Shown: piece by piece, positions 5,406-33,052 of the stretch
How the letters are laid out: the number at the start of each line of letters is the position of its first letter
Numbering within the stretch: position 1 is the first letter of the stretch
From: Gammaproteobacteria bacterium
GTDB lineage: Bacteria > Pseudomonadota > Gammaproteobacteria > Nitrosococcales > Methylophagaceae
Assembly (NCBI GenBank): GCA_029210875.1
Contig: JARGFJ010000027.1
Location: 1-33,309, forward strand
DNA length: 33,309 bases
Direction of reading: 5' to 3'
Notes under the pieces: generated by a model
The model's database searches: none
What the model saw: only the letters and a program-made list of their open reading frames with translations
What the model was told of the DNA's origin: nothing
Made by a program: the position numbers and the translations under genes

Positions 5406-6120
5406 GAGGAGTGATTGATGTCAAATCAAGATATTCGCTGGCTACAGCGTTTTGAGAATTATTTGAAGGCCTTGGGTCAGTTACAGTCTGCGTTGTCCAT
5501 GTATGATGCGTCAGCTGAAGCCTTGATCAAAGAGGGTATTTTGCAGCGTTTTGAGTTTACCCATGAGCTTGCTTGGAAAGTAATGAAAGATTATTTGGAA
5601 TATGAAGGCCATCAGGGGATTACGGGGTCTCGTTCGGCTAGTCGCTTGGCTTTTAATCTGGGGTTGGTAACAGACGGTCAGGTTTGGATGGATATGATTG
5701 AAAGCCGTAACAGAACAGTTCATACCTATGATGAACGTGTTTTGGAGCAGGAGTTTGCAAAAGTTCAAAATCGCTATGCGAGCGCATTTTTGCAATTTGC
5801 GCAGACCATGCAGGGTTTTAAATAATGTTTGGATTGCCTGACGCTACAGTGGTGTCGATGCAGCGGGTTTTTGAACGTTTTCCACAAGTTGAAAAGGTCA
5901 TCATTTATGGTTCTCGCGCAAAAGGCAATTTTCGCCTCGGTTCGGATATTGATTTGACTTTGTTAGGTCGACAATTGAATGGCTTGGTGTTAAGTCATAT
6001 CTTGGTTGATTTGGATGATTTAAATATGCCTTATATGTTGGATGTGTCTTTATTTGATCAGATTGGTTCGGATGATTTAGTGAGTCATATTGAGCGGGTG
6101 GGTAAGGTGTTTTATCAAAA
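5406..6120 (+). repeat. Direct repeat copy 2 (HEPN/MNT cassette)
   Basis: This is the second copy of the 1131-1849 segment, offset by 4271 bases downstream of the first after the small indel. It keeps the GAGGAGTGAT that in copy 1 ends fnlA, even though no fnlA is here. That hints that copy 2 was derived from copy 1, or that this sequence belongs to the cassette as its ribosome-binding site. Confidence 0.93.
5418..5825 (+). CDS. HEPN-domain toxin of HepT/HI0074 type, copy 2
   Basis: This is a 135-residue duplicate of the protein at 1147-1554, identical except Met28 in place of Val28. The RX4HXY motif (Arg97, His102, Tyr104) is intact, so the copy should be functional if the family activity holds. 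The ATG at 5418 is chosen over the TTG at 5415 because GAGGAG lies at the right distance and it matches copy 1. It couples through TAATG to the MNT gene. It follows the wbuB end and the epimerase relic rather than fnlA. Confidence 0.85.
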   Translation: MSNQDIRWLQRFENYLKALGQLQSALSMYDASAEALIKEGILQRFEFTHELAWKVMKDYLEYEGHQGITGSRSASRLAFNLGLVTDGQVWMDMIESRNRTVHTYDERVLEQEFAKVQNRYASAFLQFAQTMQGFK

Positions 6121-6148
6121 ACACAGAGGGGCCAGGCCTTACATTTGA
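5825..6148 (+). CDS. MNT-domain nucleotidyltransferase antitoxin, copy 2
   Basis: This 107-residue duplicate of the MNT protein at 1554-1862 has Gln in place of Glu50. Gly29-Ser30 and Asp41/Asp43 of GSX10DXD are kept. The homology ends at base 6120 and the frame then reads through foreign DNA, so the tail is KHRGARPYI instead of KKND. Because only the extreme C-terminus changed, catalytic function is probably retained, though a change in pairing with the HEPN partner is possible. The natural C-terminus of the family cannot be told from these two copies alone. Confidence 0.8.
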   Translation: MFGLPDATVVSMQRVFERFPQVEKVIIYGSRAKGNFRLGSDIDLTLLGRQLNGLVLSHILVDLDDLNMPYMLDVSLFDQIGSDDLVSHIERVGKVFYQKHRGARPYI

Positions 6149-24815: not shown

Positions 24816-26147
24816 ATGAATCTAAAACTCCGACTCAACCTTATCATAACGCTTTTATTGTTAATGATTATCGCAATAGGGGCGGTATCGACCATTCATA
24901 ATGCACGCCAAAATGTGCAAGCGGAAATTGCGTCTACAGCAGTGTTGGCAGTGCATATGTTAGATGCTGAGATATTGCTATATAGCTATGGAGCCGATTG
25001 GGGCCGACCTTCTGATGGTGCCAAGCGATCCAATTTCAATTTAAATAAATTACAGAATGTTCGACATTTAAAGATAGAGTTCTTAAACGTGTTTGGTGAT
25101 TTGATAGACAGTAATCACTATGCACAACATGAAACCATAGCACCTGACTGGTTTGTCCAAATTATGGACTCGGTGACAAAACAAATGCAGCCGACACAAC
25201 GCCAAGTATTTAAAGCTGGTCATATGATAGGTGAATTAGTTGTGACACCTGATCCATTAAATGAGATTGATGAAGTCTGGGAAGAAACTAAAACCATGTT
25301 GATCTTGCTGGTTTTTTTCATTATTACCGCTAATGTATTGATATATTTAGCAGTAAATCAGGCGTTGAAACCTATAGACCGAATTATAGAGGCATTATCA
25401 GAAATAGAATTGGGCAAATTTTCATTAAGACTGCCACAATTTTCTCTGCCGGAATTAACGAATATAAGCAATAAGTTTAATGTAATGGCAGACACGCTAC
25501 AGAAAAGCGTAGAAATGAATCGTCGTTTACACCAGCAAATCATTAATGTGCAGGAAAACGAACGCAAAAATCTTGCACGTGAGTTACATGATGAGATTGG
25601 TCAGCATTTAACCGCAATCAATCTAGATGCCGCAGCAATTAAAACGGCACCTAATCTTAAAGTAGCACAAGAAAGTGGTTCAGCTATCTCAGGTGTTGTC
25701 AGGCAAATGATTGATATTGTACGTAATATTTTGCAACGACTACGTCCCGCTGATCTTGATGAATTAGGACTTAAGCTTGCACTTGCCGAATTGGTCAATA
25801 CATGGAAACTACGCAATCCCACCACGCAGTGTCAGCTTAATGTGCGAGGTGAATTTGTTGATTTAGACGATTCGCTGCTAATTGCTATTTATAGAATTGT
25901 TCAAGAATGCCTGACTAATGTTGCCCGTCATTCGAATGCAGAGCATGTCGACATTACATTGATACAGGAAATAGATGAAATTAGTTTTACTGTCAAAGAT
26001 GATGGTGTTGGGTTTGATTTATCTCAAACTGGAAATAGCTTTGGTTTGCTAGGCATGAAAGAACGTTGTGAAGGTTTAAATGGAAGCTTTCATATCACGT
26101 CTGGGATTAATCACGGTGCCTGCATAGAAATAAGGCTGCCTTCTTAA
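24816..26147 (+). CDS. MoxY-like membrane sensor histidine kinase (HisKA_3)
   Basis: This 443-residue sensor has TM1 (8-27), a periplasmic domain of about 130 residues, TM2 (159-180), HAMP (about 181-235), a dimerisation helix with His258 in NLARELHDEIGQHL, and an ATPase domain with ECLTNVARHSNAEH and DDGVGFD. The periplasmic start (AEIASTAVLAVHMLDAEIL) resembles the LapD/MoxY N-terminal domain. MoxY and MxaY kinases are known regulators of methanol oxidation and, in some methanotrophs, of the lanthanide switch. The adjacent response regulator and the xox operon 1.7 kb downstream support such a role here. The ligand is unknown. Confidence 0.82.
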   Translation: MNLKLRLNLIITLLLLMIIAIGAVSTIHNARQNVQAEIASTAVLAVHMLDAEILLYSYGADWGRPSDGAKRSNFNLNKLQNVRHLKIEFLNVFGDLIDSNHYAQHETIAPDWFVQIMDSVTKQMQPTQRQVFKAGHMIGELVVTPDPLNEIDEVWEETKTMLILLVFFIITANVLIYLAVNQALKPIDRIIEALSEIELGKFSLRLPQFSLPELTNISNKFNVMADTLQKSVEMNRRLHQQIINVQENERKNLARELHDEIGQHLTAINLDAAAIKTAPNLKVAQESGSAISGVVRQMIDIVRNILQRLRPADLDELGLKLALAELVNTWKLRNPTTQCQLNVRGEFVDLDDSLLIAIYRIVQECLTNVARHSNAEHVDITLIQEIDEISFTVKDDGVGFDLSQTGNSFGLLGMKERCEGLNGSFHITSGINHGACIEIRLPS

Positions 26148-26154
26148 AGGAAAA

Positions 26155-26799
26155 ATGATGGATAAAAAAATTACAGTATTACTGGTCGATGATCATGCAG
26201 TTGTTCGTTCTGGTTTGAGACGATTGCTTGAGCAAGGCGACGAGGTGGATGTGGTTGCTGAAGCAGAAAGTGGTGAGCAGGCTTATCAACTATATGGCGA
26301 AATATTACCCGAGATTTTGGTTATGGATATGTCTATGCCCGGCATCGGCGGATTGGAAGCGCTTCGGCGTATTAAATTACGTTATTCGAAGGCAAAAATC
26401 ATTATTTTCTCAATGTATGAAAATGCCACATTTTCTACACAAGCACTGACTGCCGGGGCATTAGGTTATGTATCCAAGTCAGGTGAGGCAGGCGATCTAC
26501 TCACTGCAGTTAAACAGGTCTATGCAGGCAAAATTTATCTTAGCTCTGAAATGGCCCAGAAAATTGCACTGCACACGATGAGTGGTGACGATAATCCGAT
26601 ACAAAAGCTGACAGCAAGAGAGTTTGAGATTTTTCGCCTTCTAGCAGAAGGCAAAGTAGTCGATGAAATAGCAAAACTGCTCAATATAGGTCAAAAAACA
26701 GTGGCAAATTATCAAACACTATTAAAACAGAAGTTGCATATCAACAGTCCTGTTGAGCTGGTACGCCTCGCGATTCGACACGGTGTAATAGAAGATTAA
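26155..26799 (+). CDS. NarL/LuxR-family response regulator
   Basis: This is a 214-residue two-domain regulator. The receiver has Asp12/Asp13, the phospho-acceptor Asp58 in VMDMSMPG and Lys108 in VSKSG. The C-terminal GerE/LuxR helix-turn-helix covers about 150-210 (LTAREFEIFRLLAEGKVVDE). AAAGGA precedes tandem ATGs at 26155 and 26158; either could be used. It starts seven bases after the kinase gene, so the two form a cognate pair. The xoxF upstream region, with its inverted repeats, is a plausible target. Confidence 0.87.
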   Translation: MMDKKITVLLVDDHAVVRSGLRRLLEQGDEVDVVAEAESGEQAYQLYGEILPEILVMDMSMPGIGGLEALRRIKLRYSKAKIIIFSMYENATFSTQALTAGALGYVSKSGEAGDLLTAVKQVYAGKIYLSSEMAQKIALHTMSGDDNPIQKLTAREFEIFRLLAEGKVVDEIAKLLNIGQKTVANYQTLLKQKLHINSPVELVRLAIRHGVIED

Positions 26800-26812: not shown

Positions 26813-27628
26813 ATGAAAAAACAACTAAAAACATTAGCAGCATTATTAATGGTGTCTATGCCAACCCTGGTGAATGCCGACTTTGTGCAAGGCAAAACAG
26901 CGATGATAGCGGGTGATTATGCAACAGCCATATCAGAGTTTTCACCTTTAGCTCAACAGGGCGATGTGATATCACAATATCTTATGGGTGTCATATACGA
27001 TGATGGTCTGGGTGTTGAACGTGATCAGAAGCAGGCCGCTAACTGGTACGAAAAGGCAGCTCATCAGGGCAATGTCAATGCGCAATATAATTTGGGCGTG
27101 ATGTACAGTAAAGGTCAAGGTGTTGAAATAGATTTAGAAAAAAGTGCACATTGGTATGGTAAAGCCGCTGAACAAGGACTTGCCTTAGCTCAGTTTGCAC
27201 TTGGAGATATGTATACAAAAGGCTGGGGTGTCAAACAGGATTACCAACAAGCTGCGAATTGGTTTGAGAAAGCAGCAAAACAGAAACACTTTAAATCACA
27301 GTTTTCTTTAGGACTGCTTTATTACGAAGGTAAAGGTGTACCAAAAGATCAACAAAAAGCGGCATATTGGACACGCCTGTCAGCGGAACAAGGTCATTAT
27401 AAAGCGCAATACACCTTAGGCATGATGTATAAAGAAGGCATTGGAGTGGAACAAAACCTTGTTCTTGCTTATGCATTATTAGAGCTAGCAACACGTGATG
27501 GTCATGCGGCCGCTGAGAAGTTCAAGAAAGAACTAACATTGGAAATGAAAGAGGAACAACTTAAAAAAGCTAAATCTATCGCCAGTTCATGGCAAACAAG
27601 TACGCCAATATCTATCCCAAGTACTTAA
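26813..27628 (+). CDS. Secreted Sel1-repeat protein
   Basis: This 271-residue protein has a signal peptide (cleavage likely after LVNA, residue 22) and five or so Sel1-like repeats of about 36 residues, for example AQYNLGVMYSKGQGVEIDL and AQFALGDMYTKGWGV. These repeats form alpha-solenoids used for protein contacts. AGGAG precedes the ATG and the gene is 13 bases after the response regulator, so it is cotranscribed with the two-component pair and may modulate the sensor in the periplasm. That role is inferred. A strong terminator closes the unit. Confidence 0.8.
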   Translation: MKKQLKTLAALLMVSMPTLVNADFVQGKTAMIAGDYATAISEFSPLAQQGDVISQYLMGVIYDDGLGVERDQKQAANWYEKAAHQGNVNAQYNLGVMYSKGQGVEIDLEKSAHWYGKAAEQGLALAQFALGDMYTKGWGVKQDYQQAANWFEKAAKQKHFKSQFSLGLLYYEGKGVPKDQQKAAYWTRLSAEQGHYKAQYTLGMMYKEGIGVEQNLVLAYALLELATRDGHAAAEKFKKELTLEMKEEQLKKAKSIASSWQTSTPISIPST

Positions 27629-27762: not shown

Positions 27763-27830
27763 ACTTTTACACGCTATCCGTAAAAACGGTGAAGCGGCTT
27801 AATATCCTAACAAAAATCAAGGGGAGAAAT

Positions 27831-29741
27831 ATGAATAAAGCCAAATTTACTTTGCGAGCCAGTATAGTTGCACTGGGAACAGTGGCAATGATTGGTCTTG
27901 CAGGTCAGGCAAGTGCTAATGATGAAATCATCAAGCGCAGCCAAAATCCTGATATGTGGGCGGCACCAGGTGGTGACTTGGCAATGACACGTCACAGTGC
28001 TTTGAAAGATATCAATACAAAAAATGTTAAAAACCTTCACATGGCATGGTCACAATCAACAGGTGCACTTCGTGGTCATGAGGGGCAACCTGTTGTGGTT
28101 GAACATAATGGTAAGCCAATGATGTATTTTGTCAGTGCCTGGCCAAACATTGTGCAAGCACTAGATCTATCAAATCCTGATAAACCTGCACAGGTATGGA
28201 ACTATCAGAAAAAAACCGATCGTGATATGTCTGCAGTACCGCGCGCCTGTTGTGACACGGTTAACCGTGGTTTGAACTATGCTGATGGTAAAGTTATTTT
28301 CCATACACTGGATGGTTTATTGATTGCACTTGATGCCACGACTGGTGAAGAAGTGTGGGTGACCAAACATGCATATCCAGATAAAGGTGAAACACACACT
28401 GGACCAGCAATGGTAGCTGAAAACCTGGTTATTGCCGGTTTTGGTGGTGACGAATTTGCAGCACGTGGCCGTATGGTTGCTTATGATATTAAAACAGGTA
28501 AAGAAGTATGGACTTGTCATAGCACAGGTTCTGACAAAGACGTTTGTTTAACACCTGAAACCAATAAAGATAATCCGCACTACGGTACCTACGGACATGA
28601 TTTGGGTATGATTACTTATCCACGCGATGAGTGGAAAATTGGTGGTGGTGCACCATGGGCATGGTTCACTTATGACCCTGATTTGAAAATTGTTTATGCC
28701 GGTACCGGTAACCCAGGTCACTGGTCACCTGCGTATCGTTGTGGTGAAGAAGGCAAAAACTTGACGCATGAAAAATGTAACGAGTACAACCCAAAAATCA
28801 ATTCAGGTAACTGGGATAACAAATGGTCTATGACTATTATGGCTCGTAAAGTTGATACGGGTGAAGTAGTGTGGGCTTACCAGAAAACGCCATTTGATCA
28901 GTGGGACTATGATGGCGTAAACGAAAACATCCTGGTTGATAACCTGAAGGTTGACGGTAAGAAGCATAAAGCATTGGTTAACTTTGATCGTAATGGCTTT
29001 GCTTATGTTATGGATCGTACCAACGGTGATCTACTTCGTGCGCACAAATTCGTTACCGTTGATTGGGCTGAGAAAGTAGACTTGGTAACAGGTCGTCCGC
29101 TTAAAGTGAAAGAGCACTCACCATTTGAACGCGGTCGTAATGTAGCTACATGCCCATCTGCACAAGGTGGTAAAGATCAGCAACCGGCATCGGTTGATCC
29201 ATCTGAACCAAACATTTTCTATGTACCAACAAACAACTGGTGTATGGAAGATGAACCTCAAGAACGTACTCATACTCAACAAGGTACGGTTTACGTATTT
29301 GCTAACGTCTATATGTATCAAGAAAAACCAGGTGTTTCTGGTAAGTTGAAAAAATTTGACGTTGTAACAGGTAAAACCATTTGGGAAATTGCTGATTCAT
29401 ACCAAAACTGGAGTGGTACATTGAACACTGCTGGTGGTTTAGTGTTCTACGGTAGCATGGGTGGTGACTTCCGTGCGGTTGACCGTAATTCAGGTAAAGT
29501 GGTTTGGGAACGTAAGCTGGGTTCAGGTATTATCGGTAACCCAATTTCCTGGAAAGTCGATGGTAAACAATATGTTGGCGTATTCAGTGGTTTAGGTGGT
29601 TGGGCTGGTTTGCCAGTAACTGCCGATCTGGATTTCTCTGACAAATATGGTGCTATCGGTGCAACAGCGATGGCGAAAGCTGCCAAACTGAACCTCATTC
29701 CACAAGGTGGTGAGTTCACAGCATTCCGGGTTTATCCATAA
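27831..29741 (+). CDS. xoxF: Lanthanide-dependent PQQ methanol dehydrogenase
   Basis: This 636-residue periplasmic quinoprotein oxidises methanol. The signal peptide ends near QASA (residue 29). Adjacent Cys140-Cys141 in RACCDTVNRG form the vicinal disulfide under PQQ. Asp359-Tyr360-Asp361 in QWDYDG carries the extra Asp (+2) that marks lanthanide-binding XoxF-type enzymes, in contrast to Ala in MxaF. Glu208 and Asn294 (in GTGNPGHW) are likely metal ligands. The ATG at 27831 with GGGGAG upstream replaces a GTG at 27789. Segments 229-239 and 301-328 hold extra Cys pairs (229/239, 304/316). XoxJ and XoxG follow. Confidence 0.95.
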   Translation: MNKAKFTLRASIVALGTVAMIGLAGQASANDEIIKRSQNPDMWAAPGGDLAMTRHSALKDINTKNVKNLHMAWSQSTGALRGHEGQPVVVEHNGKPMMYFVSAWPNIVQALDLSNPDKPAQVWNYQKKTDRDMSAVPRACCDTVNRGLNYADGKVIFHTLDGLLIALDATTGEEVWVTKHAYPDKGETHTGPAMVAENLVIAGFGGDEFAARGRMVAYDIKTGKEVWTCHSTGSDKDVCLTPETNKDNPHYGTYGHDLGMITYPRDEWKIGGGAPWAWFTYDPDLKIVYAGTGNPGHWSPAYRCGEEGKNLTHEKCNEYNPKINSGNWDNKWSMTIMARKVDTGEVVWAYQKTPFDQWDYDGVNENILVDNLKVDGKKHKALVNFDRNGFAYVMDRTNGDLLRAHKFVTVDWAEKVDLVTGRPLKVKEHSPFERGRNVATCPSAQGGKDQQPASVDPSEPNIFYVPTNNWCMEDEPQERTHTQQGTVYVFANVYMYQEKPGVSGKLKKFDVVTGKTIWEIADSYQNWSGTLNTAGGLVFYGSMGGDFRAVDRNSGKVVWERKLGSGIIGNPISWKVDGKQYVGVFSGLGGWAGLPVTADLDFSDKYGAIGATAMAKAAKLNLIPQGGEFTAFRVYP

Positions 29742-29853: not shown

Positions 29854-31521
29854 ATGGCAAGTAAATTAATTCTCACATTATCGGCCACTAGTCTGGCAAT
29901 AAGTAGCGCTGTGTTTGCAGCTGATAATGTTCCGGCACTACGTGTATGTGCCGATCCCGGCAATATGCCTTTATCCAATACACAGAGTGAAGGCTTTCAT
30001 AACAAAATTGCAGAAGTCCTGGCGCAAGCAATGGGGACACATGTCACTTATGCCTATAGACCGTATCTTGAGCGTGGCCTGACGCGACAAACATTCAAAA
30101 ATAACCGCTGTGACATATTGATGGATATGTCGGCAGACAATGAAAGAATGATTACGACCACACCGCTATATCGAAGCACATTTGTGCTTGCAACTAAAGC
30201 TGATAGTCCATACAAATTTAGTTCTTTTGCTGATCCTGAGTTGAAAGAATTGACTATTGGGGTATTTCAACATTCTGCTATCAGAACTGAATTGATGGAA
30301 CACGGCATCAATGGCAACAACCTAAGGCTTCATATCATTAGTCACAATGCTGATTTAAAACCGGAAAGGCAACCTACCAAGCAAGTCGAAGCCGTTATCA
30401 ATGGTGATCTGGATATTGCTGGCGCGTGGGGACCTTTGGCTGGCTGGTACAACGCGGGCGATACAAAACCGTTGACCTTATATCCACTTAATCAATACGA
30501 CACAGTATTACCAATGGAGTTTGAGCTGGGAATTGGTTTGAAAAAATCTGATACGCAATTGCGAGATAAACTCAATCAAGTACTGATTCAAGAAAAAGAA
30601 AAAATCAAGGAAATATTAGTGTCATATGGCGTGCCACTTGTTGAGTGTTCAAACTGTATTGTATCTGGTGATATTCCTTCACATGGTCCGTATCAACAAC
30701 ATGAGCATGTCGTAGCCAAATATCAAACAGCGAAACAATCTAATAAAGATGAATTACCAGAACAGATTGATGCAGCATTGCAAGCTGGCAGTACCTTAGA
30801 TGGTGAGTTGCTGAATGCTGTGCTGGCAAAAGATTTACCGCGTGTTAGTTATGTCATTGAACGTGGTGCAGATATAAATACGCCCGATGCCAATGGACTG
30901 ACGCCTTTAATGAATGCGGTTAAGGGTGCAAACCTCGATTTGGTTAAATTATTACTTAAAAACAAGGCCGAACCGAATGCAATTGATAGTGATGGTTGGA
31001 CAGCTGCAATGCATGCTGCCTGGTTAAATGAACCTAAGATGATTAGAACTTTATCGGCCTATGGTACTGATTTTGAAAAAGTTGAAAAGCTGACTCAAAG
31101 TACAGCCTTAAGTTTAGCAGTACAGAACGGTAAAGCCTTAGCCGTAGTTGCATTGCTCGATAGTGGTGCTGATGCCAATCTAGCGGTAGGTGAGGCTAAC
31201 TATACACCTCTGATGATTGCTGCAAAAGTTGGCAAACTACCTGTGGCTCAAACCTTAGTTCAATATGGTGCGAACCCAAATCTGACCAATGATGGTGGTG
31301 TCACTGCATTGATGATCGCTGCGGCAAATAATAACCCGGATATTATTTCTCTATTGATTAAATCCGGTGCAGATCCTGAACTGAAAAATGCGAAAGGTCA
31401 GACCGCGTATGAAATTGCTCATCAGCGTGAAGCGAAAGATGCCATTCACATGTTCCACCGATTTAACATCAATAAGCTGTCGATAGCGACACAAAACAAT
31501 AAATTATCAATCGAGTCTTAA
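29854..31521 (+). CDS. xoxJ: XoxJ periplasmic binding protein fused to ankyrin repeats
   Basis: This is a 555-residue exported protein (signal peptide to about FAA, residue 23). Residues 27-265 are the MxaJ/XoxJ-type periplasmic solute-binding domain found beside quinoprotein dehydrogenases (RVCADPGNMPLSN, GDLDIAGAWGPLAGW) and thought to help activate or load the dehydrogenase. A CSNC motif at 265-268 ends it. Residues 316-535 hold about six ankyrin repeats, such as TPLMNAVKGANLDLVKLLLK and TPLMIAAKVGKLPVAQTLVQ. Ordinary XoxJ is about 270-300 residues, so the C-terminal half is an added module. The ATG at 29854 has AGGAAA upstream. The frame is continuous and codon use seems alike throughout. 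Confidence 0.88.
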   Translation: MASKLILTLSATSLAISSAVFAADNVPALRVCADPGNMPLSNTQSEGFHNKIAEVLAQAMGTHVTYAYRPYLERGLTRQTFKNNRCDILMDMSADNERMITTTPLYRSTFVLATKADSPYKFSSFADPELKELTIGVFQHSAIRTELMEHGINGNNLRLHIISHNADLKPERQPTKQVEAVINGDLDIAGAWGPLAGWYNAGDTKPLTLYPLNQYDTVLPMEFELGIGLKKSDTQLRDKLNQVLIQEKEKIKEILVSYGVPLVECSNCIVSGDIPSHGPYQQHEHVVAKYQTAKQSNKDELPEQIDAALQAGSTLDGELLNAVLAKDLPRVSYVIERGADINTPDANGLTPLMNAVKGANLDLVKLLLKNKAEPNAIDSDGWTAAMHAAWLNEPKMIRTLSAYGTDFEKVEKLTQSTALSLAVQNGKALAVVALLDSGADANLAVGEANYTPLMIAAKVGKLPVAQTLVQYGANPNLTNDGGVTALMIAAANNNPDIISLLIKSGADPELKNAKGQTAYEIAHQREAKDAIHMFHRFNINKLSIATQNNKLSIES

Positions 31522-31545: not shown

Positions 31546-32064
31546 ATGAAGATAAAGCAAGTATGTATTGCAGCCAGTTTTGCAACGGCAATGATGTTGT
31601 CCATGAGTGGGTTTGCAGGTGGCGAACCAGAAGGCACATTAGCAGTAAGCGATGATAGCTCAGCTATGGTTGGTATGAGTCCGCGTGAGCGTGTGGCTTC
31701 AACACCCAAAGGTGAATTGAAAAATCCCTATACCGACAATGAAGAAATGATCACAGCCGGTAAAGATAGGTATTTCGGTAATAGTTGTAACGGCTGCCAT
31801 GGCGGTGGAGCCGGTGGTGGTATGTGCCCCCCTATATCAAACGAAGTATTTGTCTATGGCAGTGATGATGACACCTTATTTCGTTTAGTTACACTAGGTA
31901 GTGATGATTTGCAAAAAGCCGGTTACTTTCGAAAAGGCATGGAAGGCGTTGTTGGACCAATGCCACCTTATGGCGACATTATCAAAACAGATGATGAGCT
32001 ATGGAAAATCATTGCTTGGCTAAGAACGCAGTACAAGGGTGATATCAAACGTCGCGACTGGTAA
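31546..32064 (+). CDS. xoxG: Cytochrome c electron acceptor of XoxF
   Basis: This 172-residue periplasmic monohaem cytochrome (cytochrome cL-like) has a signal peptide ending near FAG (25), the haem motif CNGCH at 81-85 followed by a Gly-rich loop and MCPP, as in MxaG/XoxG, and Met139 in VGPMPPYGD as likely axial ligand. It receives electrons from PQQ in XoxF. It has its own AAGGAAG ribosome-binding site, 24 bases after xoxJ. Confidence 0.9.
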   Translation: MKIKQVCIAASFATAMMLSMSGFAGGEPEGTLAVSDDSSAMVGMSPRERVASTPKGELKNPYTDNEEMITAGKDRYFGNSCNGCHGGGAGGGMCPPISNEVFVYGSDDDTLFRLVTLGSDDLQKAGYFRKGMEGVVGPMPPYGDIIKTDDELWKIIAWLRTQYKGDIKRRDW

Positions 32065-32083: not shown

Positions 32084-33052
32084 ATGAATAAAGTAACAAA
32101 ATTGGCTACAGCCCTTACCTTAGGAATGATAGGACAAACTATATTGGCAGCATCATCTGCACCCTTGGCTTATGTGCCAAATGAAAAAGATGCCACAATT
32201 TCTGTTATCGATACCGGTATTGATTCTGTCATCATGCAGATCCCTAAAGAGGGGCGTCTTGGTGAAGAAATCAACGCTGTGGTAACTGATAAATCAGGCA
32301 ATATTTTATATGTGGTTGATGCTGAAGATGGCAAGATTGTGCGAGTGGCACGACAATCCAGAACAATTATTGATAAATTGGATGTGGGTGAAGGTACAGA
32401 AGGTGTGATGCTATCACCAGATGGTCAGGAACTGGTAGCCTGTCAGGAAGAAATGAACCGAGTTTCTTTTATTGATGTGGCTACGTTCAAGATGGTTGCC
32501 AGTGTCGATACAACTGGTGATGCCCCTGAGCATTGTGTCTATTCACCTGACGGTAAATTAGTATTGGCCAGCCAGGAAGGCTCTGACAGTATCGACATCA
32601 TTGATGTGGCAGCTCGTAAAGTTATCAAAACATTAGCGGCTGCTGGTCATCCACGAGGGATGGATTTCACACCTAATGGTAAAACACTTTATGTGGCAAA
32701 CGAAAAAGCACATGTAACAGAAGTGTGGAATACACAAGACTGGTCATTAACGACCACCATCAAAACCGGTGAACGTTCAAATGGGGTAAAAGCGTCTCAT
32801 GATGGGCGTCGTGTTTATATTTCGGGTGGTAAAAGCTATACCGTTGATGTGATCGATACTGCATCGAATAAAGTGATTAAAACCATCGCTGTAGGTGAAC
32901 GTCCATGGAACATGGCACTGACGCATGATGATAGAAAATTGTATGTCGCTAATGGTCGTTCTAACTCAGTTTCAGTGATTGATACGATGAGATTGGAAAA
33001 ACTAAAAGACATAACGGTTGGTGAAATGCCTTGGGGTGTTTATATTCCATAA
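32084..33052 (+). CDS. PQQ-dependent catabolism-associated YVTN beta-propeller protein
   Basis: This 322-residue exported protein (signal peptide near residues 1-22) is built of repeated blades, each of the type YVPNEKDATISVIDTG, LYVANEKAHVTEVWN or LYVANGRSNSVSVIDT. It matches the beta-propeller proteins that accompany PQQ alcohol-dehydrogenase operons; their role is unknown, perhaps a scaffold or chaperone. The ATG at 32084 with TAGGAA is preferred to the frame opening at 32039, which overlaps xoxG. A terminator follows, so it ends the operon. Confidence 0.83.
   Translation: MNKVTKLATALTLGMIGQTILAASSAPLAYVPNEKDATISVIDTGIDSVIMQIPKEGRLGEEINAVVTDKSGNILYVVDAEDGKIVRVARQSRTIIDKLDVGEGTEGVMLSPDGQELVACQEEMNRVSFIDVATFKMVASVDTTGDAPEHCVYSPDGKLVLASQEGSDSIDIIDVAARKVIKTLAAAGHPRGMDFTPNGKTLYVANEKAHVTEVWNTQDWSLTTTIKTGERSNGVKASHDGRRVYISGGKSYTVDVIDTASNKVIKTIAVGERPWNMALTHDDRKLYVANGRSNSVSVIDTMRLEKLKDITVGEMPWGVYIP

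Follow-up and report, generated by a model that had tools for sequence, protein, structure and literature searches.

AnkB, found near catalase in Pseudomonas, is a stand-alone periplasmic ankyrin protein, and cytochrome cGJ of Methylacidiphilum (Versantvoort 2019, cited in PMC8546591) is, to judge by its name, a fusion of XoxG with XoxJ. It was proposed that XoxJ and MxaJ bind partly folded methanol dehydrogenase (MDH) for the insertion of PQQ and metal (PMC12997753), and MxaJ was also proposed as an adapter between MDH and cytochrome cL (PMC9728263). A solved MxaF-MxaJ entry is available (9ISM). No mention of XoxJ joined to ankyrin repeats was found in the open literature searched.

The xoxJ-ank Gene and Its Neighbours

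The window, that is, the whole analysed stretch of 33,309 nucleotides, carries such a joined gene in the order histidine kinase, response regulator, Sel1-repeat protein, xoxF, xoxJ-ank, cytochrome and propeller. The features are as follows:

24816..26147, + strand: MoxY-like sensor histidine kinase (LapD_MoxY_N, HAMP, HisKA_3 and HATPase_c)
26155..26799, + strand: LuxR-type response regulator (Response_reg and GerE)
26813..27628, + strand: exported Sel1-repeat protein (Pfam Sel1, E 4e-53)
27828..29741, + strand: xoxF of the XoxF1 clade (7O6Z match, tree, WDYDGVN, long insert before DNKW)
29854..31521, + strand: xoxJ-ankyrin fusion gene, 555 aa (open frame, TIGR03871, Pfam)
29854..29919, + strand: Sec signal peptide, residues 1-22 (MASKLILTLSATSLAISSAVFA, followed by AD; read from the sequence)
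29935..30642, + strand: XoxJ domain, residues 28-263 (TIGR03871, 6ONP match)
30643..30744, + strand: linker ECSNCIVSGDIPSHGPY..., residues 264-297 (fusion alignment)
30745..31473, + strand: ankyrin domain, approximately residues 298-540, seven helix pairs (Pfam Ank, AlphaFold2, Foldseek)
31546..32064, + strand: xoxG-like c-type cytochrome (Pfam cytochrome c)
32084..33052, + strand: beta-propeller of PQQ-ADH systems (TIGR03866-like, 180.3 bits, under the cut-off)

The fusion frame starts with the ATG at 29854, 112 bases after the end of xoxF, and runs without any internal stop to the stop codon at 31519-31521, encoding 555 aa. The first-pass annotation had read it as one unbroken frame leading from XoxJ through a CSNC motif into ankyrin repeats, with the product placed in the periplasm. 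These readings hold, and the gene lies in a methanol-dehydrogenase operon. The XoxJ half scored 240.6 bits against TIGR03871, the XoxJ/MoxJ-2 family (cut-off 212.15; model positions 1-232 of 232), and its closest solved chain was the XoxJ 6ONP (E 1.6e-29), while the MxaJ profile TIGR03870 gave 120 bits, under its equivalog cut-off of 258.1. Pfam Ank_2 matched the fusion with E 7e-36 in three stretches, the top one covering residues 320-408. Export is indicated by the signal peptide, within which the AlphaFold2 model places a hydrophobic helix (residues 2-20), and the operon by the xoxF, cytochrome and propeller neighbours, the cytochrome scoring 50.8 bits against TIGR03872, under the cut-off of 147.8.

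The two halves are connected by a linker carrying CSNC at residues 265-268 (30646-30657). In the alignment of fusions, C265, C268 and G272 are invariant; the CxxC linker occurs in 31 of 31 fusions, and no such tail was seen on non-ankyrin XoxJ. Haem attachment at this motif was ruled out, as CSNC is followed by Ile and not by His, and the whole protein contains no CxxCH.

In the AlphaFold2 model, residues ~298-540 form an ankyrin stack of seven helix pairs with block-mean pLDDT of 75-94, mostly 80-94, and Foldseek matched this part to DARPins and natural ankyrins. The earlier reading of an ankyrin domain thus stands, its count of about six repeats being slightly low, since seven helix pairs are modelled. 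The full-length model was built from an alignment of three sequences only, and for this reason the XoxJ half was poorly modelled, with pLDDT mostly under 50, so that this half was identified by sequence, through 6ONP. Among fusions, the mean frequency of the top residue was 0.64 in the XoxJ half versus 0.53 in the ankyrin half. Since the ankyrin half is less conserved and the majority of its invariant positions look structural, conservation across the fusion alignment singled out no clear binding patch on it.

Two other features of the window region were observed. In 7 of 7 fusion-bearing genomes of the genus, the Sel1-repeat gene lies directly upstream of xoxF1, constituting a second repeat protein of the operon, and no clear counterpart was found in the remaining fusion loci examined. 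Moreover, a nucleotidyltransferase/HEPN-like two-gene pair is present in two near-identical copies (1087-1862 and 5415-6148, + strand), ~4.3 kb apart within a polysaccharide gene region.

Distribution and Single Origin of the Fusion

Altogether, 31 fusions were found, 30 of them complete, so that the full-length form seen in the window recurs at 29 further loci; they come from alpha-, beta- and gammaproteobacteria, where the class and family of the genomes outside the genus were deduced from kinship labels and from the genes present. Within the genus, seven genomes have the whole fusion; the copies of the six others show 61-95% identity to that of the window, and two of the seven are Kmv26 (a Gammaproteobacteria MAG) and Methylophaga sp. 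NORP53. No fusion was found in other genera of the same family or in the order's other family, and plasmids yielded plain XoxJ only. The idea that the fusion is confined to the genus was nevertheless rejected, as wider searches recovered it in other families. TIGR03871 searches combined with inspection of long open frames gave two fusions each in families f67 and f120, one in f224 (on the alphaproteobacterial side) and ten in f182, and a XoxF1 search located nine more in the Beijerinckiaceae (f207). Some long frames of G+C-rich genomes (e.g., G1125, G1198 and G1138) with XoxJ at their C-terminal end were discarded as read-through from an upstream frame.

The first pass had raised the possibility that most XoxJ proteins carry ankyrin repeats, which was not borne out: in a class-wide draw, XoxJ was above the cut-off in 36 of 369 genomes, and only four of these 36 (G000, G127, G180 and G362) encoded XoxJ-Ank. 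Plain XoxJ proteins extend no more than about 40 residues past the domain.

To place the homologues, 115 XoxJ domains, stripped of linker and ankyrin part, were used for a maximum-likelihood tree. All 31 fusions fell on one side of a single branch (support 100/99, present in 100% of bootstrap trees), and on the same tree fusions of XoxJ to cytochromes required 6-7 changes. The ankyrin part is in frame in 30 of 30 complete fusions, and no ankyrin loss was seen within the fusion clade. Judged from these sequences, the joining of XoxJ to ankyrin happened once.

Pairing with XoxF1 Dehydrogenases

Every fusion found adjoins a XoxF gene. In the window, the encoded XoxF scored 814.6 bits against 7O6Z (XoxF1), 559.5 against the XoxF2 4MAE and 484-492 against XoxF5, and it contains the lanthanide-coordinating Asp motif WDxD as WDYDGVN. 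The 7O6Z chain is the XoxF1 of Methylacidimicrobium thermophilum AP8 (PMC8546591). In the first set of fusion loci, 21 of 21 full-length XoxF proteins were closest to 7O6Z, at 53-67% identity, and no XoxF from other loci was. In a XoxF tree of 80 sequences, the 30 neighbours of XoxJ-Ank, an orphan XoxF1 and 7O6Z formed one branch (SH-aLRT 100) with 48 of 48 other MDHs outside it, a grouping judged against XoxF2, XoxF5 and MxaF references.

The reverse test, in which 248 Beijerinckiaceae genomes were searched, returned ten XoxF1 copies in eight genomes. A complete XoxJ-Ank accompanied eight of the ten, another XoxJ-Ank was cut by the contig end just past the CxxC motif, and one copy lacked XoxJ. 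This last copy (locus L164, 10205-12118, + strand, genome G1291) showed no XoxJ within its 20-kb stretch, and two other XoxF1 copies of the same genome each have a XoxJ-Ank; with its three XoxF1 copies, G1291 agrees with the description of Methylovirgula ligni in PMC12482762. An alphaproteobacterial draw gave seven more XoxF loci, none of XoxF1 type and none with an ankyrin fusion, six of them with plain XoxJ; at the loci examined, XoxJ outside XoxF1 operons was without ankyrin. Because the pairing is with XoxF1 only and the reverse test agrees, the fusion is, on comparative evidence, the J protein that proteobacterial XoxF1 operons normally carry, and it makes up a minority of all XoxJ. What the first pass implied to be an oddity of a single genome is thus the rule in these operons.

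The XoxF1 enzymes have a distinctive feature of their own. The segment from GNPxxW to NKW spans 20-31 residues in XoxF1 (28 of 32 sequences in which the motif was found) versus eight residues in other MDHs (37 of 41 where it was found). Judging from the known fold, this segment presumably sits near the active-site entrance. The insert (GNPGHW...DNKW in the window xoxF, 27828-29741, + strand) often contains two cysteines.

A named isolate may be connected to this group. Genome G1305 has the order XoxF1, full XoxJ-Ank, XoxG and ABC-type binding protein, the same as Msil_3149, 3148, 3147 and 3146 of Methylocella silvestris BL2 (PMC9291206). Since the gene order agrees and the XoxJ1 of G1305 has the ankyrin part, XoxJ1 of Methylocella silvestris (Msil_3148) probably belongs to the XoxJ-Ank group. 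This protein was published as a solute-binding protein only, the word ankyrin being absent from that paper, and it was detected with a 62-fold drop in the presence of lanthanum, together with XoxF1 and XoxG1 (PMC9291206). Methylocella silvestris is a known isolate in which XoxJ-Ank is very probably expressed.

Proposed Function and Alternative Explanations

The arm was joined on once and has been retained, strictly paired with XoxF1, across three proteobacterial classes. This suggests a task linked to the XoxF1 enzyme type and lends indirect support to the earlier suggestion of a role for the ankyrin part in methanol oxidation. In the explanation that we favour, with about an even chance of being right, XoxJ-Ank would be a maturation or docking protein dedicated to XoxF1, its ankyrin arm gripping a partner of that system. 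The exported protein would act as the J protein of the XoxF1-type, lanthanide-site MDH, with the bilobed XoxJ half holding or opening the immature dehydrogenase for loading of PQQ and metal, as thought for XoxJ/MxaJ; this maturation role is carried over from studies of other such proteins. Ankyrin repeats are a fold typical of protein binding, and the ankyrin half, standing on the conserved CxxC linker, may be a protein-binding arm for a partner in the same system. As the phylogenetic link to XoxF1 is strict, a partner inside the XoxF1 system is the best guess, most likely XoxF1 itself, perhaps through the clade-specific insert, and such an arm could raise affinity and specificity in cells with other dehydrogenase-J pairs. 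Counting against this explanation, the insert may be there for a different reason, XoxJ is missing beside one XoxF1 copy, and the ankyrin half presents no clear binding patch.

A more specific form of this proposal, which we put forward tentatively, is that the arm is a clade-specific recognition module docking on the XoxF1-only insert of 20-31 residues, so that XoxF1 and its J protein would make an orthogonal assembly pair free of cross-talk with XoxF5 and MxaF in the same periplasm. If true, a quinoprotein would here be served by a periplasmic ankyrin chaperone arm of a new kind. The function of XoxJ/MxaJ is an open question in methylotrophy, to which a detachable arm limited to one dehydrogenase clade offers a direct handle, since one could remove it, exchange it or employ it as bait; XoxJ-Ank also serves as a marker telling XoxF1 operons from other XoxF operons.

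Alternatively, in line with the first-pass suggestion of a docking scaffold, the arm may keep XoxG and/or the beta-propeller beside XoxF1, making XoxJ-Ank the hub of an electron-transfer complex. This scaffold is a possible but doubtful reading: XoxG and propeller genes lie beside the fusion in most loci, the adapter role proposed for MxaJ (PMC9728263) is in line with it, and XoxJ has repeatedly been fused to c-type cytochromes in the same bacterial family, but at some Beijerinckiaceae loci there is no XoxG match next to the fusion.

It is rather unlikely that the arm binds a target outside the methanol system, such as a general chaperone or an envelope structure, or acts in cis by stabilising or shielding the XoxJ cleft. 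Ankyrin domains are versatile and the two halves could be locked to each other through the CxxC linker, but the strict XoxF1 link in three classes favours a partner within the system. Neutral accretion of an ankyrin part without an important role is very improbable, given its retention in frame in all complete fusions since the single origin, although conservation is somewhat lower in the ankyrin half than in the XoxJ half. Finally, joining of two genes by an assembly or sequencing error, against which the first-pass annotation had cautioned, has a negligible probability and was excluded because the same full-length fusion recurs in six more genomes of the genus and in alpha-, beta- and other gammaproteobacteria, being complete in the assemblies of 28 further species.

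Comparison with Known Systems

Like the XoxJ/MxaJ proteins (TIGR03871 and TIGR03870; 6ONP, 5SV6 and 9ISM), the window fusion has a full XoxJ domain, is exported and is encoded beside dehydrogenase and cytochrome genes; unlike them, it adds a C-terminal CxxC linker and an ankyrin domain of seven helix pairs.

With AnkB and other stand-alone periplasmic ankyrin proteins, it shares ankyrin repeats in the periplasm, partly by another PQQ alcohol dehydrogenase, but those ankyrins are separate genes with no XoxJ joined. Six Methylophagaceae genomes have a cluster of this latter kind (L040, 3670-7043, and L041, L042, L043, L080 and L090), in which a PQQ-ADH and a cytochrome are followed by a stand-alone exported ankyrin; the L040 dehydrogenase has the WDxD motif. 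These clusters are apparently an independent pairing of ankyrin with a PQQ dehydrogenase.

The window genome also has a second XoxJ (L033, 11055-12296, - strand, contig C28), without ankyrin and with a C-terminal c-type cytochrome (TIGR03874-like, CxxCH), and in relatives XoxJ genes with a cytochrome tail adjoin XoxF5. As in cytochrome cGJ, the XoxJ domain of the window fusion belongs to a XoxF operon and has a second functional domain attached. However, where the partner in cGJ is a c-type cytochrome, XoxJ-Ank has no haem motif and carries ankyrin instead, with XoxG encoded by a separate gene.
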